Source: Pseudomonadota bacterium (lineage in GTDB: Bacteria > Chloroflexota > UBA6077 > JAJPHF01). Taken from it: 15,199 nt of DNA. Numbering within the stretch: the first letter of the stretch is position 1; every line of letters begins with the position of its first letter. Below the pieces are notes generated by a model that saw nothing but the letters and a program-made list of their open reading frames with translations, had not been told where the DNA came from and searched no databases. Position numbers and translations under genes: made by a program. Location of the stretch: positions 1-15,199 of the forward strand of contig JAJPHF010000062.1 of the NCBI GenBank assembly GCA_021325365.1. The letters are read 5' to 3'. Positions 1-14,654 of this stretch are shown here, piece after piece.

Positions 1-2
1 AC

Positions 3-980: not shown

Positions 981-1108
981 CCGATCTCGTCGCAGGGCGT
1001 TATACGATACACTACTGACACACGGGGTCTGTAGCATGGTGACGAGCCCGCGGCAGACTGAGGCTGGCTTACGGACGGCAGCCAAAATGCCGCTCCTCGG
1101 GAGGAACA

Positions 1109-1612: not shown

Positions 1613-1671
1613 TGGACTGACAGGTTCGCAATTCGATGACAGCACAGCGCTTCCAGGCTTACTGGCTATCC

Positions 1672-1904
1672 TCAGTACTCTGAGCAGTATGCGGTTCCCG
1701 GGCGAGCCTCCTCAGCGTACCAGTGGTTCTGAGGGGTCACCGCGGCGGCGTCGGGGAAGGCCCGGTAGAGCCCCGTGAGGACGCCGTCCGCGCCGTGATA
1801 GGTGATGCACAGGGCGGGCCACAGCGCTGGAAGCCCGCGCACTGCCGGCCAGGGCGCACGTCCGCGAGCGCGGCGCGTCCGATGCTGAGTCGCGCCACTG
1901 TTAA
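1672..1904 (-). pseudogene. 3' fragment of a coding sequence cut off by the IS630 insertion
   Basis: On the minus strand an open frame runs from the IS edge at 1904 to a TGA at 1672-1674. Its codons are almost all G/C-ending in the second half, as in real genes of this window. The product includes LPALWPALCITYHGADG and FPDAAAVTPQNHWYAEEA, which read like a folded domain and not like a shadow frame. I do not recognise the family. There is no start codon of its own; reading upstream, the frame meets a stop inside the IS terminal repeat. It therefore looks like the C-terminal part of a gene whose 5' part lies at 3063-3187. Rejoining the flanks with one TA copy leaves the two parts one base out of frame, so the ancestral gene had either also decayed or the parts belong to two different genes. 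Confidence 0.5.
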
Positions 1905-3064
1905 TATCAACTTACGGTGATTGCTTCGGGTAGAGCCGTGTTTGGCGGCCACCAGTGGAAGGCCGTGTAGCCGCAGACGACTGCCGGGTGGTCGGCGAGG
2001 TACACGCAGCGGTCCCCGAGGACCGCATCGAGGGCCGGCAGAGTCGTGAACGCGCGATTGGCCAGCGGCTCATCGACGAGCGGCCACAGGCGCTCGGCCG
2101 GTTGCAGTTCGGGCGAGTACGGCGGGAGCGGGACCAGGTGCAGCCCATCGGGGACCTGCACGGCGGTCCCGCTATGCCAGCCCGCGCCATCGAGCGCGAG
2201 CACGATCTGTTTGCTGGCGCCCACGCCCTGCGCCTGGGCGAAGTGCGCCAGCGTGGCGCTGAACACCGCCGTATTCACGGTGGGGAGCAGCAGCCATTCG
2301 GTGGCCCCGGTGTCGGGTTGGACAAACCCGTACACGTACTCCCACTCGTAGCGGGGCCGGACCACGGCCCGCAGCGGCTGCCCGCGCCGCGCCCACACTC
2401 GCCGTAAGATCGGCTTCAGTCCGACGCGGTGCTCGTCCATCGCCCAGCTCTCGACCCACGCCTGCGGGTGCGCACGCTGGACCCGCGCGACGGCCGCCGC
2501 GAGGGTTTGGGAAAAGCCGCCTGGGCGGCGGCATCGGCCTCGGCATGGCGGGGACGCGGCCGCCGGGGCGTGAACCCCAGCCGCCGCAACGACACCCAGC
2601 CTAGATGTGCGCTCACCGCGCGGCCCGTCGTCTGCGCGATCCAGGCGGCGACCTTCGGCCCGGTCCACATCCCGCCATCCGGCGCCGGGCCCTCCAGCGC
2701 GGCGGCCAACTCCGCCTCCTGGGCGGCGGCGAGCACCCGCGCCGAGCCCGGGTTCTGATGGCGGTGGTCGCCCAAGCCCGCCGGGCCCTGCGCGTTGTAG
2801 CGCTGCGCGAGTTGGCCGATCCACCGCGTGCTAAAGCCGGTGCTCGCCGCCACTTGCTGCCCAGTCCAGCCCTGCGCCAGCAGCCACACGATCTGCCAGT
2901 GCCGACTCGCCCTCGGATCGGCAGCCCGGCGATACTGGCGCTCCAGCTCGGCTACGGGTAAGTGCGGCGCGATCAGGATCCGACGCGGCATCGGCGCCTC
3001 CCTCCTCCCGGGCCAGCGCTTCGCGCGCTCGCCTAGTATACGAAGGATTCGCCATCAGTTGGTA
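1905..3064 (-). mobile_element. IS630-family insertion sequence with TA target duplication
   Basis: The element spans 1907-3062 (1156 bp), flanked by TA at 1905-1906 and 3063-3064. The imperfect terminal inverted repeats are TCAACTTACGGTGATTGCTT at 1907-1926 and, on the other strand, CCAACTGATGGCGAATCCTT from 3062 inward to 3043. They match at 14 of 20 positions, with further matches beyond. Length, TA target and the DDE transposase all fit IS630. The transposase stop codon TGA (1907-1909) is made by the last bases of the element. The insertion separates minus-strand coding fragments at 3063-3187 and 1672-1904. Confidence 0.85.
1907..2991 (-). CDS. IS630-family transposase in two frames (frameshift near 2512-2515)
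   Basis: The 5' frame starts at the ATG at 2989-2991, behind a purine-rich Shine-Dalgarno (GGAGGGAGG). It encodes the helix-turn-helix DNA-binding region, including QGWTGQQVAASTGFSTRWIG, and reaches AAQAAF. The second frame continues the homologous protein with SQTLAAAVARVQRAHPQ and carries the catalytic triad of the DDE domain: MDEHRVGL, LDGAGWHSG and PYSPELQPAERLWP. The switch falls on TTTTCCC (plus-strand AAAA at 2512-2515) and corresponds to a -1 shift in the direction of translation. Some IS630 elements make their transposase by programmed frameshifting, but the run is only four T and is not a classical X-XXY-YYZ heptamer. Either a programmed site or a simple inactivating mutation is possible. 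Both halves otherwise look full-length. Confidence 0.85.
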
Positions 3065-3187
3065 TAAGCCCTCGATTTTCTGGACACTCCGCGCGGTCAG
3101 TGCGGCATCCGTCCAGTCGGTCTTGGGGCCGCGCTTCTGCCGCGGCGGCGCTTGCCGAGCGCGAGGCGTACCGGCGCCGTTAGGCAC
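3063..3187 (-). pseudogene. 5' coding fragment downstream of the HTH gene, interrupted by the IS
   Basis: A GTG at 3185-3187 overlaps the stop codon of the HTH/coiled-coil gene (TAA at 3180-3182), a typical translational-coupling arrangement. The frame encodes about 41 residues, including RQKRGPKTDWTDAALTARSV and QKIEGLY, with G/C-rich third positions, before entering the IS at 3062. It was probably the N-terminal part of a second gene in the same operon. The C-terminal fragment at 1672-1904 is the obvious candidate for the rest, but the two are one base out of phase when the IS is removed. No family recognised. Confidence 0.35.
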
Positions 3188-3764
3188 CGCTACGCCGCCA
3201 GAACGCCCACCAGGGCCGCGGGGCCGGCGCGGCTGCCTCAAACGCCTGCGCCGTAGCGCGCTCTGCCGCGCCACTGGGCAGCGCCCGCGCGAGCGCTAAC
3301 GCCGTCAATGCTTCGTGCAGCCGGGCGTGTAGGGCCTCGCGCTCCTGGGCGTGCTGCTCGCGCTCCCGCTCGGCACTCTCGTCGCGCCGCTGGATCTCGA
3401 CGGCGTGGGCCTCGTCGCGGCGGCGCAGCTCGTCGCGCAGGAAGCTGACCTCGCTCTTGAGCGTGTCCAGCTCGCTCGTGATAGCGGCGGCCACGGCGGC
3501 GGTGTCCTGATGGCTGTCCTGCCGTGTCTGGACGGCTGCCGGCGGAGTGTCCTGCCGTGGCAGGCCGTCGTGTCCAGCCGCGTCCTGCCGTCCTGCCACG
3601 GCCCCGGGGAGCCAGGCATACCACTGGCCATCGCGCTTGTAGCCGTCGAGGCTGCCGCGCTGGAGCCGCTTGCGGAGAGCTTCCGGGGTGAGCCCCAGGC
3701 GGGCCGCGGCGTCCACGAGGGGGAGCGGCTGTCCTGCCACGTCCTGCCGCGTGTCCTGCTGCAT
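3180..3764 (-). CDS. HTH protein with RQD-repeat linker and coiled coil
   Basis: 194 aa from the ATG at 3762-3764; an in-frame TTG at 3812 would add 16 residues, but neither start has a strong Shine-Dalgarno. The order of parts is: (1) a short QDTRQD-type repeat; (2) an HTH of the excisionase/MerR-like kind, PLVDAAARLGLTPEALRKRL, with a GYKRDGQWYAWLP wing; (3) a low-complexity linker with repeated RQD units; (4) a long charged coiled coil (SEVSFLRDELRRRDEAHAVE onward); (5) a C-terminal PWWAFWRR motif. Proteins of this layout are common as putative DNA-binding proteins on mobile elements and are loosely reminiscent of KfrA-type plasmid regulators. It is divergent from the integrase gene 229 bp away, so it may regulate that intergenic region. 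The exact role is unknown. Confidence 0.7.
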   Translation of the reverse strand: MQQDTRQDVAGQPLPLVDAAARLGLTPEALRKRLQRGSLDGYKRDGQWYAWLPGAVAGRQDAAGHDGLPRQDTPPAAVQTRQDSHQDTAAVAAAITSELDTLKSEVSFLRDELRRRDEAHAVEIQRRDESAEREREQHAQEREALHARLHEALTALALARALPSGAAERATAQAFEAAAPAPRPWWAFWRRSGA

Positions 3765-3782
3765 GGCTACCCGCGTCCTGCC
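3516..3782. repeat. Dispersed GTCCTGCC octamer repeats inside the HTH gene
   Basis: The octamer GTCCTGCC occurs exactly at 3516, 3549, 3582, 3590, 3731, 3741 and 3775, with near copies at 3504 and 3753. Several spacings are near-regular (33, 33 and 34 bp between 3516, 3549, 3582 and between 3741, 3775). On the coding (minus) strand they produce the RQD tripeptide repeats. They could be only an amino-acid repeat, or also DNA-binding sites for the encoded protein. Confidence 0.6.
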
Positions 3783-3913
3783 AGGTGTCCAGACGGCGGG
3801 CCCGCCTGGCAAGGGCGAGGATAGCCGACCGGCGCACCGCCGGCGGTCACGAGGGCATCACAGTACAGACCGCCACGGCGCCACGCCCAGAAACCTGTTA
3901 TTGCCTGCCCATT

Positions 3914-3943
3914 TTGGTGATTACGGGCAAGCTGCGCTATACT
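3914..3943 (+). promoter_or_regulatory. Likely sigma70-type promoter of the integrase gene
   Basis: TTGGTG at 3914-3919 and TATACT at 3938-3943 are separated by 18 bp. The site lies about 50 bp upstream of the recombinase start, in a locally A/T-richer stretch of the divergent intergenic region. It is a motif match only. Confidence 0.5.
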
Positions 3944-3993
3944 GCGAATGCACGATAAGATCGATTACCTTGCATTCGCCAGGAGCGCGCCCG

Positions 3994-4959
3994 ATGCTGG
4001 CCCAGTCGCCGACTACCTCACCGATCTATCCGCAGAATCGGAATGCGAGCGGAAACGCCGAGCCGCCGGCGGCGCTCGTGGCCCAAGCGGATACCGACGC
4101 CCGCCTGCTCGCCCTCTGGCTCCACGGGCGCTCGGCGGCGACGCAGCGCGCCTACCGTGCCGACGCCGAGGCCTTCCTAGCGTTCGTCGGCAAGCCGCTG
4201 CGCGCGGTCACGCTCGGCGACCTGCAAGCCTACGCCGACGCGCTCGCCTCCACCCAGGCCCCCGCGTCGCAGGGGCGCCGCCTCGCCGCCGTCAAGTCGC
4301 TGTGCGCCTTCGCCCATCGTGTCGGCTATCTGCCCTTCGACGTGGGGCGCCCGCTGCGCCTGCCACCGCGGAAAGCGACGCTCGCCGAGCGCATCCTACC
4401 CGAGAGCGACGTACAGCGCTTGCTCGCCCTCGAGACGCAGCCCCGTAACCGCGTGCTCCTGCGTCTGCTCTACGCCGCCGGCGTGCGCGTGAGCGAGCTG
4501 TGCGCGCTGCACTGGCGCGACGTGCAGCCGCGTGAGGACGGGGCGGGGCAAGTCACCGTCTACGGCAAGGGGGCCAAAACGCGCGCCGTGCTGCTCTCGG
4601 CGGCGACGTGGCGCGAGCTGGCCGGCCTGCGCCAGGGCGCCCCGCCCGAGGCACCCGTGTTCCGCTCCCGGAAGGGTGGCCGCAGGCCTGCCGCCGCGTC
4701 CGCGGACGCGGCCAAGGGGCACGGCGCCCTCACGCCGCCCCAGGTGTGGCGCATCGTGCGCGCTGCGGCCGAGCGCGCGGGGATCGCCGCCGGCGTCTCG
4801 CCGCACTGGCTGCGCCACGCCCACGCCAGCCACGCGCTTGATCGCGGCGCCCCGGTGCACCTGGTGTCGAGCACGCTCGGGCACGCGGACTTGCGGACCA
4901 CCAGCGCCTATACTCACGCGCGGCCGGGGGATAGCTCGGCGCGCTACCTGGCGGTGTAG
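3994..4959 (+). CDS. Tyrosine recombinase / integrase (XerC/D type)
   Basis: 321 aa from the ATG at 3994, chosen because AGGAG lies at 3981-3985 with an 8-bp spacer; the frame is open further upstream but without a better start. The N-terminal SAM-like core-binding domain covers about residues 25-120 (SAATQRAYRADAEAFLAFVG). The catalytic domain has all expected residues: R165 (GVRVSEL), K192 (YGKGAKTR), H271 and R274 (HWLRH), H297 (LGHADLRTT) and the nucleophile Y306 (SAYTH). It should therefore be active in strand exchange. Its length and short C-terminal tail resemble XerC/XerD. Its position at the head of a mobile-element gene set, divergent from an HTH gene, suggests it integrates and excises this element. 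A chromosomal dimer-resolution role is less likely in this context. Confidence 0.92.
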   Translation: MLAQSPTTSPIYPQNRNASGNAEPPAALVAQADTDARLLALWLHGRSAATQRAYRADAEAFLAFVGKPLRAVTLGDLQAYADALASTQAPASQGRRLAAVKSLCAFAHRVGYLPFDVGRPLRLPPRKATLAERILPESDVQRLLALETQPRNRVLLRLLYAAGVRVSELCALHWRDVQPREDGAGQVTVYGKGAKTRAVLLSAATWRELAGLRQGAPPEAPVFRSRKGGRRPAAASADAAKGHGALTPPQVWRIVRAAAERAGIAAGVSPHWLRHAHASHALDRGAPVHLVSSTLGHADLRTTSAYTHARPGDSSARYLAV

Positions 4960-4961
4960 GC

Positions 4962-5845
4962 GTGGATGGGCAGCGACCCGCGTTGAAGGCGCCGCGTCTC
5001 GTATGGTCACGGTACACGCGCCAGCCACCGATCGGGCGGTGCATTTACTGCGGCGCGACAGGCATGAAGCTGACCAACGAGCATGCGATTCCTCGTGGGA
5101 TCGGGGGGTTGCTTATTCTTTACGAGGCCTGCTGCGCCACTTGCCAGGCCATCATCAATGAATTCGAGAACGCCCTGCTGCACAAGAGCTGGGGCGTGGC
5201 ACGCGCCAAACTCGGCTTCGCAAGCTACAACAAGCCGGGGCGGCCGACCTCAGCGCCGGTCGAGCTACAGCAGGGGGACACTATGGTCGGCGCGATCTCC
5301 TTATTGCCGATGCCCCCGCGTACATCGTCCTACCGCACTGGAATCCGCCCGGCCATCTCACCGGGATTGAGATCCCCGCCGGGCACATGCCGGGCCGGAT
5401 GAACCTGACCGGCACCCCAGAACTGTGCATGATCGCAGCCGACAGGGGCGCGGTCGCTCGGCTGCAGCAGACATCCCTCGCAACCAGCCTGCGCATGCAG
5501 GTGCCGATTCGGGCTTACGCTTTGGCACGCCTGCTCGCCAAAATAGCCTATGGATACGCGATCTACACTTACGGCGTGGACAACCTCGTCGATGTGAACG
5601 TCCTGCCGGGCATTCTCGAGCAGCGCGAAGATTTGGCGTGGTGGGTAGGAGGGTCGCGATACGCGGTCTTCGAGAGCGACGGGCTCCAGGTCCCCCCAGG
5701 CGTACATCAGATCGGTAGCGCGGTGGTCAATGGTCAGGTGTTCGTCGTCATCCGACTGTTTGCACGCTTGGACCCTCGGGCCCCGGAGTACATGGTTGTG
5801 ATAGGCCGTCTGCGGGAGGAGCCAACGCCGCAGGGCCTGAGCTAA
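4962..5845 (+). pseudogene. HNH-type nuclease gene with a frameshift near 5273-5277
   Basis: Starts with a GTG two bases after the integrase stop, so it is probably coupled to it. The N-terminal part has CIYCG, then LTNEHAIPRGIGG, then a second CATCQ pair followed by NEFENALL: a zinc-stabilised HNH-like nuclease domain (Cys pairs plus the EH-x-x-P core). Past VELQQG the frame deteriorates, while the -1 frame continues sensibly (LLIADAPAYIVLPHWNPPGH, then LAKIAYGYAIYTYGVDN and APEYMVVIGRL) to a stop at 5845. The switch coincides with a run of five G at 5273-5277. Restoring one base gives a protein of about 294 aa. It could be a genuine mutation, a sequencing error in the homopolymer, or less likely a programmed shift. 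Confidence 0.75.
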
Positions 5846-6182
5846 AGCTGCACGGGCGAGCTATTCCGCCAGAACGCCACCGCGGCCGTGGGGTTGTAGC
5901 AGCTAGAGAGACTTCCACAGTCCCTGAGCGCCGCAAGGAGGCTATGCAGAGAGTAGGCGAGCTGGCTACGACGACGTGCGCACTGAGTGAAGCCGTCGAG
6001 CACTATATTTTCGAGTCACCCGACACGTCCCGGGCGTAGACTGGAATACATGCAGGAGTGTCGTCGGGCCGGCGCCCCCTGTAACGTTCGAGGGGGCTGC
6101 ACCGTTTGATGGCGCGAGAGCAGCCGTGTATGGCACATGGCCTGCGACGTTGGGGGTATCGGGGCCGGGCGAGGAGCGCACC
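5846..6182. other. Non-coding gap between HNH gene and toxin-antitoxin pair
   Basis: I see no convincing gene here. The stretch 5866-5894 resembles 3187-3215, which encodes the C-terminal WWAFWRR motif of the HTH gene, and might be a remnant of a second such gene on the minus strand. Near the toxin-antitoxin pair it holds an inverted repeat (6074-6097) and a weak promoter-like pair TTGATG (6106-6111) / TATGGC (6129-6134) with 17-bp spacing. Confidence 0.4.
6074..6097. promoter_or_regulatory. 7-bp inverted repeat upstream of the toxin-antitoxin pair
   Basis: GCCCCCT (6074-6080) and AGGGGGC (6091-6097) form a perfect stem around a 10-nt loop, just before the weak promoter-like motif at 6106-6134. 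It could be an autoregulatory operator of the antitoxin, or a hairpin closing the upstream transcript. There is no T-tract. Confidence 0.35.
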
Positions 6183-6386
6183 ATGAGCGACGCGGAGAAC
6201 CTGGAACGCTATCACCGTCTCCTGGTGGAGACCAACCAGGCGTACGCCGCGCTGCGCGCCGATCCATCCGCGTGGGATGCCGAACTCGCCGAGCGCCAGG
6301 TGTGGGAGGCGACCATCGCCGACGGGCTGGAGTGCGAACCCTGGGACGAGGACGCGGGTGCATCCATCGCTCCCCCCTGGGCCTAG
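6183..6386 (+). CDS. Probable MazE-like antitoxin partner
   Basis: A 67-aa acidic protein starting at an ATG with GAGGAG at 6171-6176. It is mostly helical and charged (NLERYHRLLVETNQAYAALR, then AWDAELAERQVWEATIADGL), with an acidic, Trp-containing tail such as toxin-neutralising segments often have. I see no clear N-terminal AbrB or ribbon-helix-helix DNA-binding motif. The antitoxin call rests mainly on size, charge and its 29-nt overlap with the MazF-like toxin gene. If it cannot bind DNA, autoregulation would need another factor. Confidence 0.65.
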   Translation: MSDAENLERYHRLLVETNQAYAALRADPSAWDAELAERQVWEATIADGLECEPWDEDAGASIAPPWA

Positions 6387-6723
6387 CCCGGCGCGCGGCG
6401 AGGTGTGGGATGCCGACTTGGGCATTCCCACCGGGCACGAGCAAGGCGGCCCCCGCCCCTGCCTCGTCGTTTCCGACGACACCTACAATCAGGGGCCGGC
6501 CGACCTCGTTATCGTCGTACCGCTCACCTCGAATCAGCGCCCGATTCCTGTGCACGTGCCGGTCGCCCCGCCGGAGGGCGGCCTAACGCGCCCGAGCAAG
6601 ATCCTCTGCGACCAAATCCGCTGCATTGCACGGGCCCGCCTGCGCCAGCGACGAGGCATGGTCAGCCCGGTGACTCTACAAGACGTCGAGGACCGGCTCC
6701 GGGCGCTCCTGCGGCTACCGTAA
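6358..6723 (+). CDS. MazF/PemK-family endoribonuclease toxin
   Basis: 121 aa from the GTG at 6358-6360, chosen because GAGGA lies at 6348-6352 and it is the last start before the conserved N terminus. It overlaps the antitoxin gene by 29 nt. Family hallmarks are RGEVWDADL at residues 13-21, the GGPRPCLVVSDDTYN strand, VVPLTSNQRP, and LTRPSKILCDQIRCIARARL followed by VEDRLRALL. MazF toxins are mRNA-cleaving ribonucleases held inactive by the antitoxin. Such pairs commonly stabilise mobile elements, which fits the neighbouring integrase and replication genes. The order antitoxin then toxin with overlap is standard. No lesion is visible. Confidence 0.9.
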   Translation: MHPSLPPGPSPARGEVWDADLGIPTGHEQGGPRPCLVVSDDTYNQGPADLVIVVPLTSNQRPIPVHVPVAPPEGGLTRPSKILCDQIRCIARARLRQRRGMVSPVTLQDVEDRLRALLRLP

Positions 6724-7178
6724 CCTACCGTAACCGCGTTGCCGCGCGAGCGCATGGCGCACCCCCGCCTCTTGTAACACTCAACGAGGCGCGTAGAAGC
6801 CCGGCGAGCCGCGGGCAGGACGTCGGGGCGCAGCAGCCCCGTGGCGGGCGCCGGCGAGGTCATCCGAGTCGCCCCTCGGCTCGGGCGACGGCAACGATCG
6901 CGGCGTCGCGGGCGACTCGCCACGCGTAGCGGGGCCTGGCCGCGTTGGCCCATCCCGGCCGCAACCGGCGTTGGACACAGTACTGGTCGGGAAGGGACTG
7001 CGGATTTTGCGGAGTAGTTTGGGATTCTGCACGGAATTTCGGCATCCCGGTGTAGGATTTCCTTCGGAAGCTGCTGAGGTTTCCTGTGTAAATGGGGTGC
7101 TAAAACAGGGCAAAAACGGACCAAAATCGCCCCGCTGGGGGCCGTCTGAAGCCTGTTTAGCACGTCCAGGGGGCCAAA
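6724..7178. other. 455-bp non-coding region with structured leader
   Basis: No convincing gene on either strand; long frames here lack coding-like composition. The first half is GC-rich and has a short inverted repeat GTCGCCC/GGGCGAC at about 6870-6892. From about 6970 the sequence turns markedly A/T-richer than its surroundings. It ends in the inverted repeat at 7097-7163, immediately before the zinc-ribbon gene. The size and composition suggest a regulatory or replication-associated zone. Confidence 0.4.
7097..7163 (+). promoter_or_regulatory. Leader inverted repeat upstream of the zinc-ribbon gene
   Basis: GTGCTAAAACAGG (7097-7109) pairs with CCTGTTTAGCAC (7152-7163): 12 bp with one bulged A. 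The enclosed 42 nt contain ACGG (7116-7119) / CCGT (7142-7145) and a CCCC-GCT-GGGG hairpin, so a three-tiered stem is possible. It ends 15 nt before the next start codon and just before its Shine-Dalgarno. It could be a cis-acting RNA, an operator or a single-strand initiation structure. Confidence 0.45.
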
Positions 7179-8105
7179 ATGGCGCGCTGGTACTGGGATA
7201 AGCGCGATACGGTCGAGGATGCCCGCGTGCTTGCCGTGGGCGACTTCCACCGCTGCGGCTACCTCCGCGCCGGCCAGGGCGGCACGTCGCGCTGGCGCCG
7301 CGGCGAGCAGGAAACCGGCTCGATCGGTTGGTACTGCGACGGCGCTGCCCTCTGGCTCGACTACGCGGTCACCCCGCGCGACGGCGAGAAGCGCCCCTAC
7401 CGTTACGCCGTGCGCCTGGTCCGCACACCCCAGCCCTTCGGCGGCGAGCGCGTCTGGTTCACCTGCCCGCAGTGCCTGCGTCCAGTCGTCAAGCTGTACA
7501 TGGCGCCGATGTCGCACTACTTCTGGTGTCGGGCCTGTCAGGGGCTCTCCTACCGTAGTCGGCAAGAGCGTACACATCCGTACTGGCGCCTCTGGGCACG
7601 CGCGCACGAGCTGGAGCGCGCGTTAGAGACAACCCCACGGCGGCGCGGGCAGTGGCGCCGCACGCTCGCCGAGCTGGCGGCGGTGAACCAGGCGCTACTG
7701 GCCGCCAGCCCACACATGCTCGCCGACCTCGACGCGCGGATTGCGCGGGTGACAGAGCACACCACGCGAGTGCGACGGCGCCCGGGCCGACCGTCTAAGC
7801 GCACGCTACGCGAGCGTGCCCGCCTCGTCCGCCAGGCCGCCCAGCCCAGTGCGCCCGCGCGCCCGCCGGGCCGACCCAAGGTGAAGCGGGCCTACACGCG
7901 GCGCCAGCCGTGGGCGCTCGCCACGCCGCCAGCCGCGGGCCTCGCCTACTGCGTCCGCTGCCGCGATCGCCGCCCCCTGGTAGACGGCCAAGCCGTCACT
8001 TACGCAAACGGGCGCTCCGCGCTCCGCGGCGTCTGCGGGACGTGCGGCACAACAGTTACACGGATCGTGGCGGCTGCCCCGCTGGCGAGCGCACGGGGCG
8101 CGTAG
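7179..8105 (+). CDS. Protein with two zinc ribbons and AT-hook-like linker, function unknown
   Basis: 308 aa, ATG at 7179 with AGGGGG at 7168-7173. Three parts are visible. Residues 1-95 form a beta-rich domain (GSIGWYCDGAALWLDYAV, then the R-x-x-P-x-x-x-GG-x-R/E-x-W type strand PFGGERVWF). This leads into a zinc ribbon C96/C99-C117/C120 with LSYRSRQE after it; I know this arrangement from uncharacterised mobile-element proteins. The middle is basic and helical with two GRP cores (RRPGRPSKR and RPPGRPKVKR) resembling AT-hooks. The C-terminal 50 residues hold a second ribbon, C258/C261-C286/C289 (YCVRCRDRRPL and GVCGTCGTT), resembling DUF5679. Nucleic-acid binding is a reasonable inference; no catalytic site is seen. 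Confidence 0.75.
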   Translation: MARWYWDKRDTVEDARVLAVGDFHRCGYLRAGQGGTSRWRRGEQETGSIGWYCDGAALWLDYAVTPRDGEKRPYRYAVRLVRTPQPFGGERVWFTCPQCLRPVVKLYMAPMSHYFWCRACQGLSYRSRQERTHPYWRLWARAHELERALETTPRRRGQWRRTLAELAAVNQALLAASPHMLADLDARIARVTEHTTRVRRRPGRPSKRTLRERARLVRQAAQPSAPARPPGRPKVKRAYTRRQPWALATPPAAGLAYCVRCRDRRPLVDGQAVTYANGRSALRGVCGTCGTTVTRIVAAAPLASARGA

Positions 8106-8490
8106 CAGCAACCCCATGCAAGCCGGGTAACCCCATGCAAAGCAGGCCGCAAGCGCGCCCGCCGCGCGGGATAACCCGCATTACGACTCCATCTGCGCCC
8201 GTATCGTGCGTGGGCGCTTTATCCATCTTCGACCCTTTATGCAGCACCGGTGACATGAATCGTTTGGAGCGCGAGGAGACTCTAATCATTAGGCCAGCTA
8301 TCGCTCACAATAGCAGCCACGACAGCGCGTGACCGGGTGTCACCTCTATCTGACTGAGCGCGCCGCACGCTAGAATGCTCCAACGCAAGCGAGAGCGCCA
8401 AGACCATACAGCCGCGTTACGAACGTAATTGAGACGGGTGACATTACCCACGCAACCGTGCTACTGGAGTACCATGAGCGCAAGCGAAGC

Positions 8491-8537
8491 GGCCCGCGTC
8501 CCCCACCCTGGCGCCCAACCCGGGAGGGACGCGGGCC
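8491..8537. other. Perfect 12-bp inverted repeat
   Basis: GGCCCGCGTCCC (8491-8502) and GGGACGCGGGCC (8526-8537) are exact reverse complements around 23 nt. As RNA this would be a very stable hairpin. There is no following T-run, so it is not a classical intrinsic terminator; operator, replication-associated or transcript-boundary roles remain open. Confidence 0.6.
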
Positions 8538-8568
8538 AACAGCAGCCCGTTGCGGCGGGGCTGTGCGG

Positions 8569-8631
8569 CTAGTGTAGCTGGTTGGTAACGGCCGCGGTAG
8601 CAGCGGGGGGTACCAACCGCGCATCAACTAG
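8569..8631. promoter_or_regulatory. Nested inverted repeat upstream of the HTH gene
   Basis: GGTTGGTA (8580-8587) pairs with TACCAACC (8611-8618), and outside them CTAGT (8569-8573) pairs with ACTAG (8627-8631). The outer arms sit 6 and 8 nt from the inner ones. The set ends 37 bp before the ATG of the small HTH protein, where an autoregulatory operator or an excision/recombination arm site could lie. Confidence 0.45.
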
Positions 8632-8668
8632 CGTCGGCCCCGACCGACGGGCGGAAAAGGAACCGCCC

Positions 8669-8899
8669 ATGCCCGACCTCGCCGATACCCTGACCACGGG
8701 CGCTGTCGCCCGCCAGCTCGGCGTGCGCGCATCCACCGTGCGGCGCTGGGAAGCCGCCGGCCTGATTCCCCGGGCCTGCGGCCAAACGCTCGGCGGGCAT
8801 CGCCGCTGGCCGGCCGCCCTGGTCGCTGAGCTGGCCGCCCGCATGGCCGGTCACGACCAAGACGCGCACGATGCCGCGGAAGGGGGCGCCAGTGCGTAA
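8669..8899 (+). CDS. Small MerR/excisionase-like HTH protein
   Basis: 76 aa from the ATG at 8669, behind AAGGAA (8657-8662). The frame is open upstream, but only this start has a Shine-Dalgarno and places the HTH near the N terminus. The core LTTGAVARQLGVRASTVRRW, then EAAGLIPRACGQTLGGHRRW is a winged HTH of the MerR/BldC/Xis type: the T-x-x-A-x-x-LGV-x-x-x-T-x-x-RW and GGHRR signatures are both present. There is no effector domain or dimerising coiled coil. As first gene of the replication module and in an element with a tyrosine recombinase, it is a candidate recombination directionality factor or module repressor; sequence alone does not decide. Its stop overlaps the start of the next small ORF. 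Confidence 0.8.
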   Translation: MPDLADTLTTGAVARQLGVRASTVRRWEAAGLIPRACGQTLGGHRRWPAALVAELAARMAGHDQDAHDAAEGGASA

Positions 8900-9050
8900 C
8901 GGCCAGCACCTGCCAGCCCCCAGCTATATGCACCCGCGGCGCGCTGAGCTACTCGCTATCCTCGCCGTGCTTGAGGCGCTTGCCGCCGCTTACTATCGCA
9001 CCGAGCCACCGCCGCCGAACGACAGCGCGCCCAATGCCGAGGGACGATGA
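8892..9050 (+). CDS. 52-aa small protein overlapping both neighbours
   Basis: A GTG start at 8892 follows a strong Shine-Dalgarno, GGAAGGGGG (8879-8887), inside the end of the HTH gene. It overlaps that gene's stop by 8 nt. Its own TGA (9048-9050) overlaps the initiator gene's ATG as ATGA. The product has an amphipathic Ala/Leu helix (AELLAILAVLEALAAAYYR) and a Pro-rich polar tail. The double overlap and third-position G/C bias argue for translation. Function unknown; a short partner or regulator of the initiator is a guess. An internal ATG at 8928 is an alternative start. Confidence 0.55.
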   Translation: MRNGQHLPAPSYMHPRRAELLAILAVLEALAAAYYRTEPPPPNDSAPNAEGR

Positions 9051-10399
9051 ACCCGACGCTACCCCCCAATCCTCTGCACCAGGTCTGGGAAACCTTATAC
9101 GCGACGGCGCAAGAACTCCTCGCCTATGCGACACGCACAGGGCAACCCCCGCCGCCCGCGCTGCTAGCGATCCTGCGCCAGCTCGTTGATTACCTGGACT
9201 CGCTCGGCGCCGACTCCGCCGGCCTCGAAACCGAGCTGGGCGCCGTCGTGCAGGTACTTGACCAGGTACGGCTACAGCTCGGCCTCGCGCCCCCCCCCGT
9301 CCCCGACGTGTTCGACCGCGATGCGGCGCCGATCCCCACCATGCACGCCGTTCGCGCGCTGGTCGGCGCGATACACGACGGCAGCACGGGCCGCGGCTGG
9401 GCCGACCAGGGCGGCCAAACTGTGCCAACCCACCACACCCCGACCCGCGGGAGCGGCGCGGTGTTCGTTTCCGTGCGCGATGCCACCGGCAGCCCGACGC
9501 CCGCAGCCGACGTGCTGCCTCAGCTTTGGGAGAAGGTGCGCGCCCTGGACGATCTGACGAGCGACGTACTGCTAGTCTGTCTCGCTCATTGGGCCACACG
9601 CAGCGAGCGCCCCGACCAACCCGTATGGATTACGGCTGACGCGGTGCTCGACGCCCGCGGGATTGAGCGCAAGCGCTACCGGAGCGAGCGCGAGATGTGG
9701 GCGCACGGCCATCGCCGCGAGGACCGGCTGGAGGTAGCACGCGCGTTCGCCCGGCTCGATGCGCTTTGGCTCCAACTCGTGAACGTCGAAGTGATCCCCC
9801 CAGGCCGTGGGCGCAAGCGCCAGGCCGTCAACGTCGAAAGTAAGGCGCTGGCGTGGCTCGACCGGATTACGCAGCCCGACCTCGACGGCGGCGAGCCAGT
9901 GTTTCTCGCCGCGCGGGTGATGCCGGGCGCGTGGGCCAACGAGTACGCAGCGCTGGACGTGCGCCAAACGGGCCTCTTAGCACAGAAGGCGCTCGCCTAT
10001 GATCCGTACCGGCGGCAGCCCGAGAAGCGCTTGGCGAAGTACCTGGCCTTCCACGTCCGCATCAATAGCAAGCACGATCGCGTAACCCTCAACTTGCGGG
10101 TAAGCACGCTGCTCGACACCGCCGGCCTCTTGCCCGAGCCTGCCAACCCGCTCCGCACGCGGAAGCGCCTCGAAGATGCACTTAATACGCTCTGCCAGGA
10201 TGGCCTACTCGACGGCTGGCGCTACGTGCTCGACCCCGAGCAGCTCCCCGCGCGGCGTTGGCTTGACGCCTGGCTAGGCTTTACTGTGGCCCTCACGCCG
10301 CCGGCGGCGCTGCGTGAGCAATACGCCGCACTCGCCGCTACCGCTCAGGCCGCGCCGGCGCCGCGGAAGCGCCGGGCACGACGGGCGCCCGCGGAGTAA
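9047..10399 (+). CDS. Probable replication initiator (Rep-like, winged-helix)
   Basis: 450 aa, ATG at 9047 with GAGG at 9039-9042, coupled to the preceding small ORF by ATGA. The N-terminal ~90 residues are helical, followed by a variable segment with a poly-C run in the DNA (about 9289-9297). The central block (LTSDVLLVCLAHWATRSERP, then WITADAVLDARGI with basic residues KRYRSEREMWAHGHRREDRL) and the C-terminal block (KRLAKYLAFHVRIN, then LRVSTLLDTAGL and TRKRLEDALNTLCQDGLL) look like two winged-helix-type DNA-binding domains, as in plasmid initiators. The C terminus is basic. Its place just upstream of 22-bp iterons, a helicase and a primase supports the initiator call. I cannot name the exact family. 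Confidence 0.65.
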   Translation: MNPTLPPNPLHQVWETLYATAQELLAYATRTGQPPPPALLAILRQLVDYLDSLGADSAGLETELGAVVQVLDQVRLQLGLAPPPVPDVFDRDAAPIPTMHAVRALVGAIHDGSTGRGWADQGGQTVPTHHTPTRGSGAVFVSVRDATGSPTPAADVLPQLWEKVRALDDLTSDVLLVCLAHWATRSERPDQPVWITADAVLDARGIERKRYRSEREMWAHGHRREDRLEVARAFARLDALWLQLVNVEVIPPGRGRKRQAVNVESKALAWLDRITQPDLDGGEPVFLAARVMPGAWANEYAALDVRQTGLLAQKALAYDPYRRQPEKRLAKYLAFHVRINSKHDRVTLNLRVSTLLDTAGLLPEPANPLRTRKRLEDALNTLCQDGLLDGWRYVLDPEQLPARRWLDAWLGFTVALTPPAALREQYAALAATAQAAPAPRKRRARRAPAE

Positions 10400-10464
10400 C
10401 TGCGGTGTGCAGCGCTCGGGCCGGCGACGTTGACGAGGTCGCACCCGAGCGCACCGCGCCGCGG

Positions 10465-10530
10465 CACCGGTACGGTATCGCGTGGCTACCGGTACGGTAT
10501 CGCGTGGCTACCGGTACGGTATCGCGTGGC
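10465..10530. repeat. Three tandem 22-bp iterons: candidate replication origin
   Basis: Three head-to-tail copies at 10465-10486, 10487-10508 and 10509-10530. The repeat begins TACCGGTACGGTATCG and ends CGTGGC; the only difference is C instead of T at the first base of copy 1. The period of 22 bp is two helical turns, as in many iteron plasmids. Each copy contains the palindrome TACCGGTA. They lie 66 bp after the stop of the probable initiator gene and before an A/T-rich zone. Confidence 0.85.
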
Positions 10531-10563
10531 ATCGGCGCGGCGGATTCGGCGCCGGCATTAGGC

Positions 10564-10606
10564 TAGCAGCGTGCCTCAGGCTGCTAATTAGTCTAATAAG
10601 ACTAAT
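10564..10606. other. Two abutting hairpins in a short A/T-rich zone
   Basis: TAGCAGC (10564-10570) pairs with GCTGCTA (10580-10586). Immediately afterwards ATTAGTCT (10587-10594) pairs with AGACTAAT (10599-10606) around AATA. The second repeat is the most A/T-rich spot of this intergenic region and lies 57 bp after the last iteron, so it may be the duplex-unwinding element of the origin. An operator is the main alternative. Confidence 0.5.
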
Positions 10607-10646
10607 GCTCGCGCGGCGACGCTTGAGGCGCGCCGCGCGGCGTAGG

Positions 10647-10682
10647 ATGCTACCTCCGAACACAGCCGCCCGGAGGTAGCAT
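10647..10682 (+). promoter_or_regulatory. Perfect hairpin sequestering the helicase ribosome binding site
   Basis: ATGCTACCTCCG (10647-10658) and CGGAGGTAGCAT (10671-10682) are perfect 12-bp complements around a 12-nt loop. The 3' arm contains the Shine-Dalgarno GGAGG (10672-10676) and the first two bases of the helicase start codon. In the mRNA this would hide the initiation site, suggesting translational control; as DNA it could be a dyad operator. Confidence 0.7.
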
Positions 10683-11583
10683 GGTCGCTACGCCTACTCG
10701 TGAGCCGTTCACGCCCTCGGCCGACACGCCCCCGCGCCCGCGCCTGGCGCGGCTCGGCGACCTGCTCGGCGAGCTAGAAGCCGACGCGATCGCCGCCCAC
10801 GCCGCCCGCGTCGAAGGCCGTCCTCGCGGCCCAGTGACCGGTCTGCGCCCACTCGACCAAGAGCTAGGTGGGGCGCTGCCTGTCGGCGTGACCGCTGTAC
10901 ACGGTGGGCCGGGCGTCGGCAAGACCGCGTTTGGCCTGCAGGCCGCGGCGTCGTGCGGCGGCCCGGCCCTGTTCGTAACCTGCGAGATGGCGCCCCTCGA
11001 GCTGCTACGCCGCCACACAGCTCGCGTGACGGGTACCTACCTGGGGCGGCTGAAGTCGGGTGAGCTGGCGCCCGCCGACGTGCTCACGCTGGCGCGCCAG
11101 GCCGCCGGGGCGGCGCCGCTGCTGATGCTCGCCGACGCGACGCAGGCGCCCGCCGACGCCGATTGGCTGCGCGATGCGGCCCGCGCGGCACGCGGCGGCG
11201 CCGAGCACTTGCTGTTAGTGCTCGACTCGCTGCACTCTTGGGCCGACGCGCTCGGCGGCGATGCGCCCGAGTACGAGCGGCTCAACGCTGCGCTCGCTAT
11301 CCTGCGCCAACTCGCCGGCGCGCTCAACTGCGCCATGCTGGTGACAGTGGAGCGCAACCGCGCCAGCATGCGGGCCGGCGGGCTAAACGCCGGCGCCGGC
11401 ACGCGCAAGATCGAGTACGGCGCCGAAGTCGTGCTTGACCTGACCGCCGACGACAAGGCGCCACCGGTGGCGCCGGGCACGGTGGCGCTGGTGGCGACGC
11501 TCGACAAGAACCGCCACGGCTCGCCGGGCCGCAAGCTGCCCCTACGCTTCACGGGCGCGCTCCAGCGCTTCGAGGCCGTGTAG
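10681..11583 (+). CDS. DnaB/RecA-like replicative helicase (RepA-type)
   Basis: 300 aa, ATG at 10681 with GGAGG at 10672-10676. It is a single RecA-fold ATPase: Walker A GGPGVGKT (residues 75-82), Walker B LLLVLD (177-182), a Q-loop-like MLVTVERNR segment, and KNRHGSPG (276-283), equivalent to the arginine-finger/K-N-R-x-G motif near the C terminus of DnaB helicases. It lacks the N-terminal DnaB domain that binds DnaG; about 55 residues precede the linker, which starts GPVTGLRPLDQELGGALP. This size and layout match hexameric helicases of plasmids and phages (RepA-like). The next gene, a primase, starts directly after its stop. It likely unwinds the element's origin. Confidence 0.82.
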   Translation: MVATPTREPFTPSADTPPRPRLARLGDLLGELEADAIAAHAARVEGRPRGPVTGLRPLDQELGGALPVGVTAVHGGPGVGKTAFGLQAAASCGGPALFVTCEMAPLELLRRHTARVTGTYLGRLKSGELAPADVLTLARQAAGAAPLLMLADATQAPADADWLRDAARAARGGAEHLLLVLDSLHSWADALGGDAPEYERLNAALAILRQLAGALNCAMLVTVERNRASMRAGGLNAGAGTRKIEYGAEVVLDLTADDKAPPVAPGTVALVATLDKNRHGSPGRKLPLRFTGALQRFEAV

Positions 11584-12756
11584 ATGCCCACGGGCACTGC
11601 CGCGCCGCCGCTCTCGCTCGCTGACCTGGAGGCCTTCGACCCTCAGGCGCCGCCGCGCGACGGCGAGCGGCGGTTCTGCTGCCCGCTACCGGCCTGTGCC
11701 GACAAGCCGGTCGACGCCGCCCACCGCTCGCTCTCTGTGAACGTCGGCACGGGCCTCTGGCGCTGCTATCGCTGCCAAGCCCGTGGTAGGTTGCGCGAAT
11801 GCTGGAGCGCGCGCCCTACCAGTCGCCGCGCTCGCAGTCAGGCCGCCGTGGCGCGGGCCTTCCGCCTCACGCCCGAGCCGTTGCCGCCAGCGCCCGAGGC
11901 CGTGCCCTGGCGGGACCAATGGGCCGCAGCCGGACCGCTCGCCGACACGCCCGGCGCTGCCTACCTCGCGGGCCGCGGGATTCCGCTTGCGCTCGCCGAC
12001 GCGGCCGGCGTGCGCTGGGCGGCGCGTTTCTTCGGGCGCCCCGCCGTCGTGTTCCCGCTCACGGATGTGGCCGGCCAGCTCGTCGCCGTGACAGGGCGAC
12101 ATACCGACGGGCGGGACGATCCGAAGGCGCACACAGCGGGACCGAAGTCGCTGGGCCTGTTCGCCACGGCCGGAGCGCTCGCCGCTGATCCGCTCGTTAT
12201 CACGGAGGCGCCGCTTGATGCCCTAGCGCTCGCAGCGTGCGGGGTGCCCGCCGTGGCACTCTGCGGCACGACGGGGCCGCGGTGGCTGCTCCAGCGCGCC
12301 GCCCTGCGCCCCGTGCTCCTGGCCCTCGACAACGACGCCGCGGGCGACGCCGGCGCCACCTCGCTCGGTGTCACGCTGGTGAGCCTCGGGGCGCACTGCG
12401 AGCGGCTACGGCCCGGGCGGAAGGATTGGGCCGACGATCTAGCTGCAGCAGGGCGCGACGTGCTCGCCGCGCAGCTTGCCGCGCAGCTAGGACAGCCCGC
12501 GGCGTCGGCGCCGCCCGAGCCGTGGGAGCCGGCCGCGGCTCGGGCGCTACTCGCCACCCTGTACGAGCGTGTGCAGGCGGCATGGCCTCAGCTCACGCCC
12601 GCGGCGCGGCGCGAGGCGACGGCGATTCTACAGGGGCAAGAGCCGGCCCTACGGCGCGCCTGGGATGCGCGGGACGCGGCCGGCCTCCGTGCGGCGCTGG
12701 CGGCGGTCGATATGGTGCTCGTGCCGTGTCTGGCAGTGCGCAACAGTACGGATTAA
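11584..12756 (+). CDS. DnaG-like primase with CHC2-type zinc finger and TOPRIM domain
   Basis: 390 aa; its ATG immediately follows the helicase TAG, so the two are co-translated. The N-terminal zinc finger has C33-x4-C38, H47 and C61-x2-C64 in a context typical of CHC2 fingers (HRSLSVNVGTGLWRCYRCQA). A middle domain (AGAAYLAGRGI-like and FFGRPAVVFPLTD segments) leads to TOPRIM, with the catalytic Glu208 (VITEAPLDALAL), D249-N-D251 (LALDNDAAG) and KDWADDL at 280-286. The last ~100 residues are helical and Ala-rich, possibly the helicase-interaction region. It should make primers for the element's replication. A metal-binding core with all acidic residues suggests it is active. Confidence 0.88.
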   Translation: MPTGTAAPPLSLADLEAFDPQAPPRDGERRFCCPLPACADKPVDAAHRSLSVNVGTGLWRCYRCQARGRLRECWSARPTSRRARSQAAVARAFRLTPEPLPPAPEAVPWRDQWAAAGPLADTPGAAYLAGRGIPLALADAAGVRWAARFFGRPAVVFPLTDVAGQLVAVTGRHTDGRDDPKAHTAGPKSLGLFATAGALAADPLVITEAPLDALALAACGVPAVALCGTTGPRWLLQRAALRPVLLALDNDAAGDAGATSLGVTLVSLGAHCERLRPGRKDWADDLAAAGRDVLAAQLAAQLGQPAASAPPEPWEPAAARALLATLYERVQAAWPQLTPAARREATAILQGQEPALRRAWDARDAAGLRAALAAVDMVLVPCLAVRNSTD

Positions 12757-13005
12757 CGTTCGCCCACTGGCGGCCGCACCGCCCGCCGGTCCGGCTGCTG
12801 CGCGCCTCCCCGCCTGGGCCCTCGACCTACGGAGCCAGCCCCGGCAGGCTCATGTCAGTTCTGTAACATTTTTGCGCTCACGCCGTTTAACCAAGCAACA
12901 AGGCGCTGTGGCGGCGGCCGCCGTGCTCGCGTCGGTACGGCGAAGCCACCCGCTTGAGTGCGTAGGAGCGCGTCCTCCTGCGCTGGGGGCTCAGGCAGGA
13001 TACTG

Positions 13006-13371
13006 ATGGGATCGCGGTGGCACGCGCTGGCGGTGGGCCTCATCATCCTGCGGCTTCTCTGCGGCCTCAGCAGTCCCACAACGGTAGCGAGTGGCGCATC
13101 GGTCCGCGGTCTCGCGTGGCTCGGCCACCGGGAGGCGGCAGGAGTCACTCTGCGCACCACTGCGGAGCGCCCCCCATTGCCTGTCCGTCCGCGCGGCGCC
13201 ACGGGGCGGAGGCTCACTGTGCCCTCGACCCATCCGCGTCTGTGCCGCGCGCTCACGACGGTCTGTCCGGTGTCCTCGCTGTCGGCGCCTGAGTCGGCGC
13301 TGCCCGCTGCCTATGCCGCTGGACAGACGCCCGCGACGCTGCGCTGGGCCCCTGCTCCCCTACGCGCTTAG
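13006..13371 (+). CDS. Possible small secreted protein, doubtful
   Basis: 121 aa from the ATG at 13006, preceded by AGGA (12997-13000). The N terminus resembles a signal peptide (basic n-region, then ALAVGLIILRLLCGLSS, then VASGAS as possible cleavage site). The rest is Pro/Arg/Thr-rich with no domain I recognise. Other frames are also open here, as is common at this GC content, so the signal-peptide-like start is the main support. The 249 bp between the primase gene and this start hold nothing I can identify. Confidence 0.35.
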   Translation: MGSRWHALAVGLIILRLLCGLSSPTTVASGASVRGLAWLGHREAAGVTLRTTAERPPLPVRPRGATGRRLTVPSTHPRLCRALTTVCPVSSLSAPESALPAAYAAGQTPATLRWAPAPLRA

Positions 13372-13476
13372 ACCGCTCCCCCACTCCACACTACGTCGCA
13401 CGCGATGCAACAAATGCCTGCCTGGCCGCACGCCCGGGTAGCGTCGTGTCCACTGCAGGAGTTGGGGGAGCCACGT

Positions 13477-14283
13477 ATGGAAACCTCGCATGGATTCGGG
13501 CTATCGCCGGCGCACCCGCGACCACCTGCTCGCACCCCGGTCCCGATTCGCGTCGTCATCGTCGATGAGCAGCCACTGACGCTACAGACGTTTGAGGCAA
13601 TCTTGCAGGCGACGCCCGACATCGCGGTGGTCGGCACCGCCACGCACAGCGCCGCGGCGTTGGACCTGATCCAACAACAGCACCCGGACGTGCTGCTCCT
13701 CGACCTGCTGCTGCCGAGCCCCAGTGGCCTGGGCCTCGCCCAGGCCATGCTCACCCAGCACCCGGCCACCACCGTGCTACTCGTGACCGGCGCCGGCGGC
13801 GCCTGGGATCCCCGGCCGCTGTTGGCCCTGGGGCTGCGTGGCTACCTGACGACTACCGTCTCGCTCGACGACCTGCGCGCCGCGGTGCGCGCCGTCGCCG
13901 CCGGGCAGGCCGTGATCCGTGCCGAGGCGCCCACGATGGCGCTGGACGCCGCGCCCTACCTGCTCACGCCGCGGGAGCGGGCCGTCCTGCGCCTCCTGGC
14001 GCAGGGCCAGGGCAACGAGGAGATGGCGACGGTGCTGCATCTCTCGCTGCGCACCATCGAGCGCTGCCGCAGCGCGCTGCGGACCAAGCTGGCGGCGCGC
14101 TCCTCGCGGGAGCTGCTCCACACAGCCGCGGGCTGTGGGCTGCTTGCCCCGGGCCTGGCCCGCCCTGCGGCCGTGCGAGCCCCGGCCGCTTCCCGACCGC
14201 CAGTGCGGTTGGCGGGTTGCCGCCACGATAATGGCGGAAAGTTGGCGGGTTTTCCTCTTGTGCCGTGCCCGGGCGCGGTGTAG
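13477..14283 (+). CDS. NarL/LuxR-family response regulator
   Basis: 268 aa from the ATG at 13477, chosen for its Shine-Dalgarno GGGGGAG (13464-13470). A receiver domain covers residues about 24-140: acidic pair D30/E31 (IVDEQPL), phospho-acceptor D76 (LLLDLLLPSPSG) and T104 (LLVTGAG). At the usual conserved lysine after GYL (here GYLTTTVSLDDL, residues 122-133) there is Thr, so phosphorylation signalling may be altered. A LuxR-type HTH follows (LTPRERAVLRLLAQG, then ERCRSALRTKL). The last ~50 residues are an unusual Pro/Ala-rich tail. No histidine kinase lies in the window. It is probably a chromosomal gene outside the mobile element. Confidence 0.85.
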   Translation: METSHGFGLSPAHPRPPARTPVPIRVVIVDEQPLTLQTFEAILQATPDIAVVGTATHSAAALDLIQQQHPDVLLLDLLLPSPSGLGLAQAMLTQHPATTVLLVTGAGGAWDPRPLLALGLRGYLTTTVSLDDLRAAVRAVAAGQAVIRAEAPTMALDAAPYLLTPRERAVLRLLAQGQGNEEMATVLHLSLRTIERCRSALRTKLAARSSRELLHTAAGCGLLAPGLARPAAVRAPAASRPPVRLAGCRHDNGGKLAGFPLVPCPGAV

Positions 14284-14286
14284 GAT
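14258..14286 (+). promoter_or_regulatory. Possible promoter at the end of the regulator gene
   Basis: TTGTGC (14258-14263) and TAGGAT (14281-14286) are separated by exactly 17 bp, overlapping the regulator stop codon. It may drive the downstream secreted-protein gene through a leader of about 360 nt. Motif match only. Confidence 0.3.
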
Positions 14287-14654
14287 GGGCCTACGCTTCG
14301 TCGAGCGCTTCGGTCAAGCCCAGGGTAGTCCTCTCGTAAGTAGCCGAGGGCCGGCTGGGCAGGGACACGCTACCCGGTAGCGCCGTCCCGACGCGACACA
14401 ACACACAAGGATGGGCCCCGTAGCGGCGGCCACCGCCGGGGCCCGTGGCAGAGAGCGGTTGGGCGACCTCCCTGTGCCGCGTCCAGTCTAGCACACCACG
14501 AGACTGAGCGCCCACCGGGACTGGGCAGCGTTGCGCTGCGCAGCGTGTCCTCTCCCCTTCTCCTGCTGACTGGCGGCGAGCCCGTGGCTGAACGCGGGCA
14601 CGAGACTGACGGTACGGGGCCTCCCGGCCGGGTCACGGAGAGGAGCAGGACCGG
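14284..14654. other. 371-bp leader/intergenic region before the Thr/Pro-rich gene
   Basis: No convincing gene. It holds a GC hairpin, GGGCCCCG (14413-14420) with CGGGGCCC (14437-14444) and an inner GGCGG/CCGCC stem, without a T-tract. There is also a short repeat CACGAGACTGA near 14497 and 14599. The hairpin could end the regulator transcript or fold in the leader of the next gene. Confidence 0.4.

Follow-up and report, generated by a model that had tools for sequence, protein, structure and literature searches.

A probable plasmid core for replication and maintenance from an uncultured Chloroflexota bacterium, and a family of putative iteron-type initiators

The stretch analysed here (the window) comprises positions 1 to 15,199 of contig JAJPHF010000062.1 in assembly GCA_021325365.1, recorded as a Pseudomonadota bacterium and placed by GTDB in Chloroflexota (UBA6077; JAJPHF01). 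It has G+C content of 70%, and open frames are truncated at both of its ends. Between positions 3994 and 12756 it carries, all on the plus strand, genes for a tyrosine recombinase, a MazF toxin-antitoxin pair, a small MerR-like protein, a putative replication initiator (Rep), a DnaB-type helicase and a DnaG-like primase, with three iterons behind rep. These features had been named in an original prediction, which took them for an integrated replicon multiplying after excision. All of them are present. The iterons, the predicted Rep fold and the kept gene order give good support to a replicon that is autonomous and equipped with an initiator, iterons, a helicase and a primase of its own. Integration is unsupported, and a plasmid is the better reading: the stretch probably has the core genes for replicating and maintaining a plasmid in an uncultured Chloroflexota bacterium, and is itself probably part of a larger plasmid.

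The rep gene (9047–10399, plus strand) codes for a protein with a helical N-terminal part and a two-winged-helix region at residues of about 90–420. No family was recognized for window Rep at E ≤ 0.1 in Pfam, NCBIfam or PHROGs. Among 33 members of the Rep profile A1 no initiator family matched, only helix-turn-helix (HTH) families in one member each, and a sequence search of solved structures revealed no resemblance (two matches, E about 0.5). The predicted fold of residues ~90–420 is that of the iteron initiators R6K Pi, RctB and RepE, with two winged-helix domains in tandem, at 6–12% sequence identity in structural alignments. Rep is thus like R6K Pi, mini-F RepE and Vibrio RctB in predicted fold, in tandem direct repeats of about 22 bp and in an A/T-rich origin stretch, but it has an extra helical N-terminal part, its iterons lie downstream of rep, and the Pfam and NCBIfam families miss it. 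According to the fold model, it would be an iteron-type initiator that binds the iterons. That the element is possibly undescribed in its host group, as had been suggested, is true to the extent that none of the libraries searched has a name for the Rep family. A viral origin was rejected, as profile A1 found no relative in viral contigs and Rep had no match in phages.

Three tandem 22-bp iterons, ACCGGTACGGTATCGCGTGGC(T/A), are located at 10466–10531 on the plus strand and are 100, 100 and 95% identical to the unit ACCGGTACGGTATCGCGTGGCT, the third copy having one change. The array begins 67 bp past rep, and the iteron score of the 1400 bases 3' of the gene was unmatched by 60 dinucleotide shuffles (0/60). 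Between the iterons and the helicase gene, an A/T-rich perfect palindrome, ATTAGTCT-AATA-AGACTAAT (10587–10606), was read from the sequence; it may serve for unwinding or as a single-strand initiation site. At locus L002 of the soil Chloroflexota metagenome-assembled genome G002, whose Rep is 51% identical and whose gene order is Rep, iterons, helicase and primase, as in the window, these three 22-bp units recur between Rep and helicase. Window iterons aligned with L002 positions 4286–4350 at 84.6% identity over 65 bp (E 1e-12), and the remaining intergenic DNA of the two gave no blastn alignment at E 1e-10. When a two-unit iteron pattern with at most two mismatches was searched in 400 genomes of the phylum, G002 was the sole carrier; the pattern was therefore rejected as a phylum-wide marker, and iteron sequences seem to track Rep subtypes. 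Periodicity (17–26 bp) in the 1400 bases downstream of rep, computed for 34 of 37 Rep loci with 60 dinucleotide shuffles each, was above all shuffles in 20, window included, with period 22 in 16 loci, 21 in three and 18 in one. By eye, some iteron units of different loci resemble each other around a TATC core.

The Rep relatives on plasmids are mostly from outside the phylum, at least 22 of 30 being from Bacillaceae. Five non-Chloroflexota plasmid relatives (four Bacillaceae and one plasmid recorded as Klebsiella) were checked for periodicity, and two exceeded all 60 shuffles downstream, namely those of Cytobacillus (period 18) and B. arachidis (period 21, low-complexity). None of the five has a 22-bp array, and they are not claimed as iteron-bearing members. 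The relative on plasmid pNY3A (L252; CP079755.1) is recorded under Klebsiella grimontii and its stretch looks A/T-rich; the assignment looks odd beside the Bacillaceae origin of most of the plasmid relatives.

Directly downstream of the origin region, at 10681–11583 on the plus strand, lies the gene for a DnaB-type replicative helicase made up of a linker helix and RecA-type motor (DnaB_C 2.5e-11) without the N-terminal collar domain. It is followed at 11584–12756 on the same strand by a DnaG-like primase gene with a zinc-finger-like Cys cluster, seen by eye, and a Toprim domain (PF13155, Toprim_2, 4.4e-9; phrog_47 primase 3.6e-28; TIGR01391 3.6e-9, below cut-off). The arrangement has a counterpart in IncQ plasmids such as RSF1010, in which the initiator, a small DnaB-type motor helicase and the primase are all plasmid-encoded and iterons are about 20 bp long. 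The window is like them in having its own initiator, small DnaB-type helicase, primase and ~20-bp iterons, but its primase is of DnaG/Toprim type, the initiator and gene order differ, and no mobilisation gene was found among its scanned open reading frames (ORFs). RepA of RSF1010 was not among the 50 helicase matches listed, which excludes nothing. Circular 103-kb plasmid pIAD-21 (L117; Abditibacteriota) codes for a helicase 48% identical to that of the window; its gene lies downstream of one for a hypothetical protein, and dnaE2 is at a distance of 4.5 kb.

Upstream of rep, a small MerR/HTH_17/BldC-like DNA-binding protein with an excisionase-like HTH is encoded at 8669–8899 on the plus strand, starting from ATG 8669 (ORF listed from TTG 8582), with matches to PF00376 (MerR, 2.6e-9) and TIGR01764 (8e-4). 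Very weak matches to terminase small subunits (PF10668 0.02 and phrog_57 5e-4) were taken as those of a common helix-turn-helix, and a terminase reading was dropped. The gene product had been called MerR/Xis-like. Because the gene adjoins Rep, and two relatives (P0032 and P0060) have HTH_17 and Rep joined in one protein, it is more likely part of the replication module than of an excision system.

A counterpart outside the phylum is pPfer1 (NZ_CP063850.1), a completely sequenced circular plasmid of Paludibaculum fermentans (Acidobacteriota), 55,292 bp long. It has the order Rep, iterons, DnaB and Toprim, followed by genes for ParA, for a protein annotated as a tyrosine recombinase and for a MazE/Doc pair. 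Its Rep, which apparently spans the coordinate origin, is 30% identical to window Rep (E 4e-20), its DnaB-like helicase 29% (2e-6) and its Toprim protein 41% (3e-6). A 22-bp iteron array was found immediately before the helicase gene (score 0.82; 0/60 shuffles). The plasmid is like the window in Rep, 22-bp iterons, DnaB-like helicase, Toprim protein, recombinase and toxin-antitoxin pair; it differs in a longer helicase gene (1984–3261), wecB between Rep and iterons, and the presence of ParA.

Linkage of the parts was also checked indirectly by identical size of the longest contig among protein matches, covering 66 Rep proteins, the best 120 of 6,022 recombinases and the best 120 of 684 helicases. 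Rep P0002 and recombinase P0069 have longest contigs of the same size (10,979 bp; expected chance coincidences of at least 9 kb 0.0075), as have recombinase P0165 and helicase P0201 (37,211 bp, three contigs each; expected at least 9 kb 0.015). For Rep and helicase, contigs of equal size occur at 9,632 (expected 0.0275) and 4,890, and four coincidences under 2.3 kb are close to chance. This is indirect evidence that Rep, recombinase and helicase belong to common elements. In the Rep tree, the window is grouped with P0002, P0004 and P0005; only this local placement was used, as several branches (G221, G210, G363 and others) are long.

The recombinase gene (3994–4959, plus strand) codes for an Xer-like tyrosine recombinase (PF00589 1.4e-25; TIGR02225 XerD 2.2e-44, below its cut-off) in which catalytic-looking R, K, HxxR, H and Y residues were all seen by eye. 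It matches 123 of 72,556 plasmid records, in 121 cases with a coverage of 80% or more. The twelve best, from Bacillus, Methylorubrum, cyanobacteria, Rubrobacter and others, are 48–58% identical; the 11 of these twelve records that were examined are all circular, and some have ParA or toxin-antitoxin genes nearby. In 158 genomes (class of G001), with at most 14 candidates scored per genome, 42 have a match at E 1e-20 and one exceeds 40% identity (G067, 52%). A dif-like inverted repeat, AATGCACGATAA-gatcga-TTACCTTGCATT (12-6-12, two mismatches), at 3947–3976 ends 17 bp before the recombinase start and is a candidate recombination core. The site is weak taken alone, as an 11-6-11 repeat with at most two mismatches has a 9% chance of occurring somewhere in 310 bases. 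Sites of 11-6-11 form with at most three mismatches, left arm ending AA and right arm starting T, at most 130 bp upstream, were found at 7 of 14 loci: the window, pCMU02, pGLO7428.03, G067, Fischerella, Trichormus and pPfer1. In shuffled loci the count averaged 0.095 and never rose above 2 in 1000 rounds, and two in-gene controls gave 0/13 each. Without pPfer1, the recombinase of which is not detectably related, the count is 6/13.

A site near the gene is described as a possible hallmark of single-recombinase Xer systems (PMC5357621). The window is like the systems XerS/difSL and XerH/difH (PMC5357621) in having a single recombinase gene with the dif-like site directly beside it, and unlike them in being plasmid-type; the centre of its site has 6 bp, that of difSL 11 bp. 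With moderate confidence, the Xer-like recombinase and dif-like site are taken to serve dimer resolution, because the nearest named relatives are on circular plasmids and the site lies just upstream.

Between the recombinase and MerR-like genes are further plus-strand frames. An HNH_5-like frame at 4962–5402 (PF14279 1.1e-4, below cut-off) is overlapped by a second one without match at 5387–5845, and the two may be a single interrupted gene. A putative antitoxin without family match (6126–6386) lies upstream of a MazF/PemK-like toxin (6382–6723; PF02452, PemK, 8.9e-29), and a zinc-ribbon protein of the DUF5679 type is encoded at 7179–8105 (PF18930 1.1e-11). Left of the recombinase are an IS630-type transposase in two overlapping frames (1907–2824 and 2416–2991; DDE_3 6.9e-17, HTH_33 3.5e-16), which is possibly interrupted (1907–2991), and, on the minus strand, a coiled-coil protein with a possible helix-turn-helix (3180–3812; sub-threshold matches only). 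A LuxR-type response regulator is encoded right of the primase at 13405–14283. At the left end of the window (1–980) is the C-terminus of an RHS/YD-repeat protein (PF25023 1.9e-4, below cut-off), and at the right end (14655–15197) an N-terminal part of a threonine/proline-rich protein that by eye looks secreted, both on the plus strand. They could be the two ends of a single gene, of a circle broken in the RHS repeats. The window as given has no terminal overlap by which it would close to a circle.

As a plasmid, the element would replicate outside the chromosome in a way proposed from its parts. The two winged-helix domains of Rep would bind the three 22-bp iterons just behind rep, and Rep would melt the A/T-rich palindrome next to them. 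After this, a collar-less DnaB-type helicase and a DnaG-like primase of the plasmid itself, from the genes just behind the origin, would load and set the forks going, so that the element would depend less on host DnaB and DnaG. The Xer-like recombinase acting at the dif-like site would resolve plasmid dimers, and the MazF module would enforce plasmid retention. ParA and/or ParB is found on the stretch examined in 27 of the 37 Rep loci, mostly within a few kb and in G002 at about 20 kb.

Several observations weigh against this plasmid and its proposed workings. No closed circle is at hand, since neither the window nor 18 further contigs checked have terminal overlap, and neither ParA nor ParB is encoded within the 15 kb, which places the window among the 10 of 37 loci without them. 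Relatives of the recombinase, 62–64% identical, are on contigs of 5.5 and 8.5 Mb (P0088 and P0172), and two more at 62% are on contigs of 356 and 594 kb (P0139 and P0149); recombinases of this kind are thus not limited to plasmids. The pPfer1 recombinase gave no tblastn match to that of the window at E 1e-3. The definition of the dif-like sites was fixed after four of them had been seen, and among ten loci that did not shape it three contain such a site. A profile of the four is clear in two of ten other loci (pNYY1_7, 0/200 shuffles; Trichormus, 5/200), the remaining eight being equalled by 10–197 of 200 shuffles. Finally, downstream periodicity did not exceed all shuffles in 14 of the 34 Rep loci, the Rep-helicase-primase set of G363, on a 288-kb contig, has no significant iteron period, and in two Ktedonobacteria assemblies (G404 and G466) Rep shares a contig with DnaA.

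That the recombinase inserts the module in the chromosome, with the MerR-like protein as excisionase and replication following excision, is quite unlikely. The tyrosine recombinase and excisionase-like HTH are indeed present, IS630 and RHS-type genes flank the module, and some recombinase relatives are on the Mb-sized contigs; the nearest named recombinases, however, are on circular plasmids, some near ParA or toxin-antitoxin genes, and the HTH gene belongs beside Rep. The search for direct-repeat attachment sites, proposed with the original prediction, gave a longest exact repeat between 1–3993 and 12757–15199 of 13 bp, within the 11–15 bp of 20 shuffles; true ends may be outside the window. 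No tRNA was found in the window and no housekeeping gene among the flank ORFs scanned. The RHS frame, the frame 1109–1612, both IS630 frames and the response regulator gave no tblastn match at 1e-6 in the loci compared, which were not picked as chromosomal homologues. A role of the same recombinase in integration is conceivable.

A fragment of a conjugative plasmid or integrative and conjugative element, with transfer genes outside the window, is a doubtful alternative, and in its plasmid form it is compatible with the explanation preferred here. The window recombinase protein is present on six contigs, the longest of 40,966 bp. The nearest element with the same iterons, the 42-kb contig C378 of G002, encodes ParA, ParB, a RES-type toxin, a DEAD helicase and a large ATPase with a weak resemblance to FtsK/SpoIIIE (6e-4, below cut-off), along with large proteins that match no family. 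No transfer gene of G002 is confirmed by a family above cut-off, and, as predicted originally, no relaxase or coupling protein, and no terminase or capsid gene either, was identified among the window ORFs scanned (16 in Pfam and 10 each in NCBIfam and PHROGs, all outside frame 14655–15197). It is very improbable that Rep regulates transcription instead of initiating replication. On Bacillaceae plasmids, several of its relatives bear the annotation 'helix-turn-helix transcriptional regulator', and 22-bp iterons are absent beside the five non-Chloroflexota genes examined. Against this stand the predicted full two-winged-helix initiator fold, the iterons with helicase and primase as neighbours, and the location of Rep at the skew switch on four large contigs, described below.

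The Rep profile matched 13 of 158 genomes in the class of G001, 1 of 29 in the class of G002, 20 of 400 in the phylum and 16 of 47 in the class of G461; these sets overlap, and in some only few candidates were scored per genome. The 9.2-Mb genome G086 has seven different Rep loci on seven contigs (C17, C41, C57, C58, C66, C72 and C82), each with ParA/ParB, which suggests many co-resident secondary replicons with different iterons. Rep is also encoded on G099:C2 (1,074,634 bp), chromosome 2 of Thermobaculum terrenum according to PMC3035366, and on contigs that PMC13289182 gives as chromid-like: G440:C2 of Dictyobacter aurantiacus (2,748,323 bp), G422:C2 of Tengunoibacter tsumagoiensis (2,396,690 bp, circular) and G461:C2 of Ktedonobacter robiniae (2,645,227 bp). 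Rep is encoded on a further large contig, G471:C2 (2,279,271 bp), which is not in the table of that source. For the chromid-like contigs of Ktedonobacteria, that 2026 paper states that no canonical Rep initiator came up in Pfam searches and that none carries parB (PMC13289182). Contrary to the latter, the K. robiniae contig has a ParB gene (PF02195 3e-20) next to those for ParA and Rep (L064 6148–8324). These chromid-like replicons are like the window in having a Rep-family member, which in them is located at a GC-skew switch; they are unlike it in being Mb-sized, in having a phage-O-like or unassigned protein as Rep partner instead of DnaB and primase, and in Reps at most 31% identical. The D. 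aurantiacus and Tengunoibacter Reps show remote similarity, chiefly in the C-terminal half (E about 1e-16 to 1e-20), and branch deeply in the tree, so that their inclusion in the family is the weaker part of this finding.

GC skew was computed for G422, G461, G440 and G471 from 17–20 nearly evenly spaced 20-kb pieces plus the Rep stretch, on a grid of 120–138 kb in which the Rep segment was deliberately included. After detrending, cumulative skew reaches its minimum at the Rep segment itself in three contigs (G461, G440 and G471) and at a distance of 10 kb from Rep in the fourth, G422. The undetrended minimum of G461 is 94 kb away, and the G471 curve is noisy and dips almost as low again near 2.1 Mb. 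With finer bins (1–10 kb), a local sign change was found downstream of rep, on the iteron side, at 1–5 kb in G440, G461 and G471 and at about 9 kb in G422. There are also 46-bp direct repeats downstream of rep in G440 and G422. In T. terrenum chromosome 2, sparse 4-kb pieces revealed no clear V shape or switch, and periodicity is higher upstream of Rep (0.69, period 24) than downstream (0.64, period 18). Because Rep is at a GC-skew switch on 4/4 large contigs sampled, it is a candidate for the missing initiator of the chromid-like replicons of Ktedonobacteria, where it would act at the origin.

DnaA-type genes are only on contigs other than that of Rep in 10 of 12 Rep-bearing genomes of the class of G461 (12 of the 16 such genomes were compared, all but G248, G362, G221 and G386); some of the 10 are fragmented, and for them this is weak evidence. 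G404 (C1) and G466 (C1, 11.3 Mb) are exceptions, with Rep and two DnaA-type genes on one contig, which may be a fused chromid or an assembly joint. On balance, it is slightly favoured that the Rep family drives secondary replicons throughout Chloroflexota, from plasmids over the second chromosome of T. terrenum to the 2–3 Mb chromids of Ktedonobacteria as domesticated plasmids, with origins just downstream of rep. It is not rated higher because the skew grid is coarse and T. terrenum gave no clear switch.

Plasmids and megaplasmids are known in Chloroflexota (PMC6497799). A literature search, judged partly from titles and starts of abstracts, found no report of an iteron origin or initiator in the phylum. 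Iteron initiators with plasmid-encoded helicase and primase are already known; new are the initiator family and its link to secondary chromosomes of Chloroflexota. With a recognisable initiator family and a defined iteron, plasmids and chromids of Chloroflexota may be found by sequence and their origins placed. The Rep family makes the question of the initiator reported missing from the chromid-like replicons of Ktedonobacteria (PMC13289182) a testable one. If the candidate role of Rep is true, the chromids of Ktedonobacteria would be domesticated plasmids of this family.

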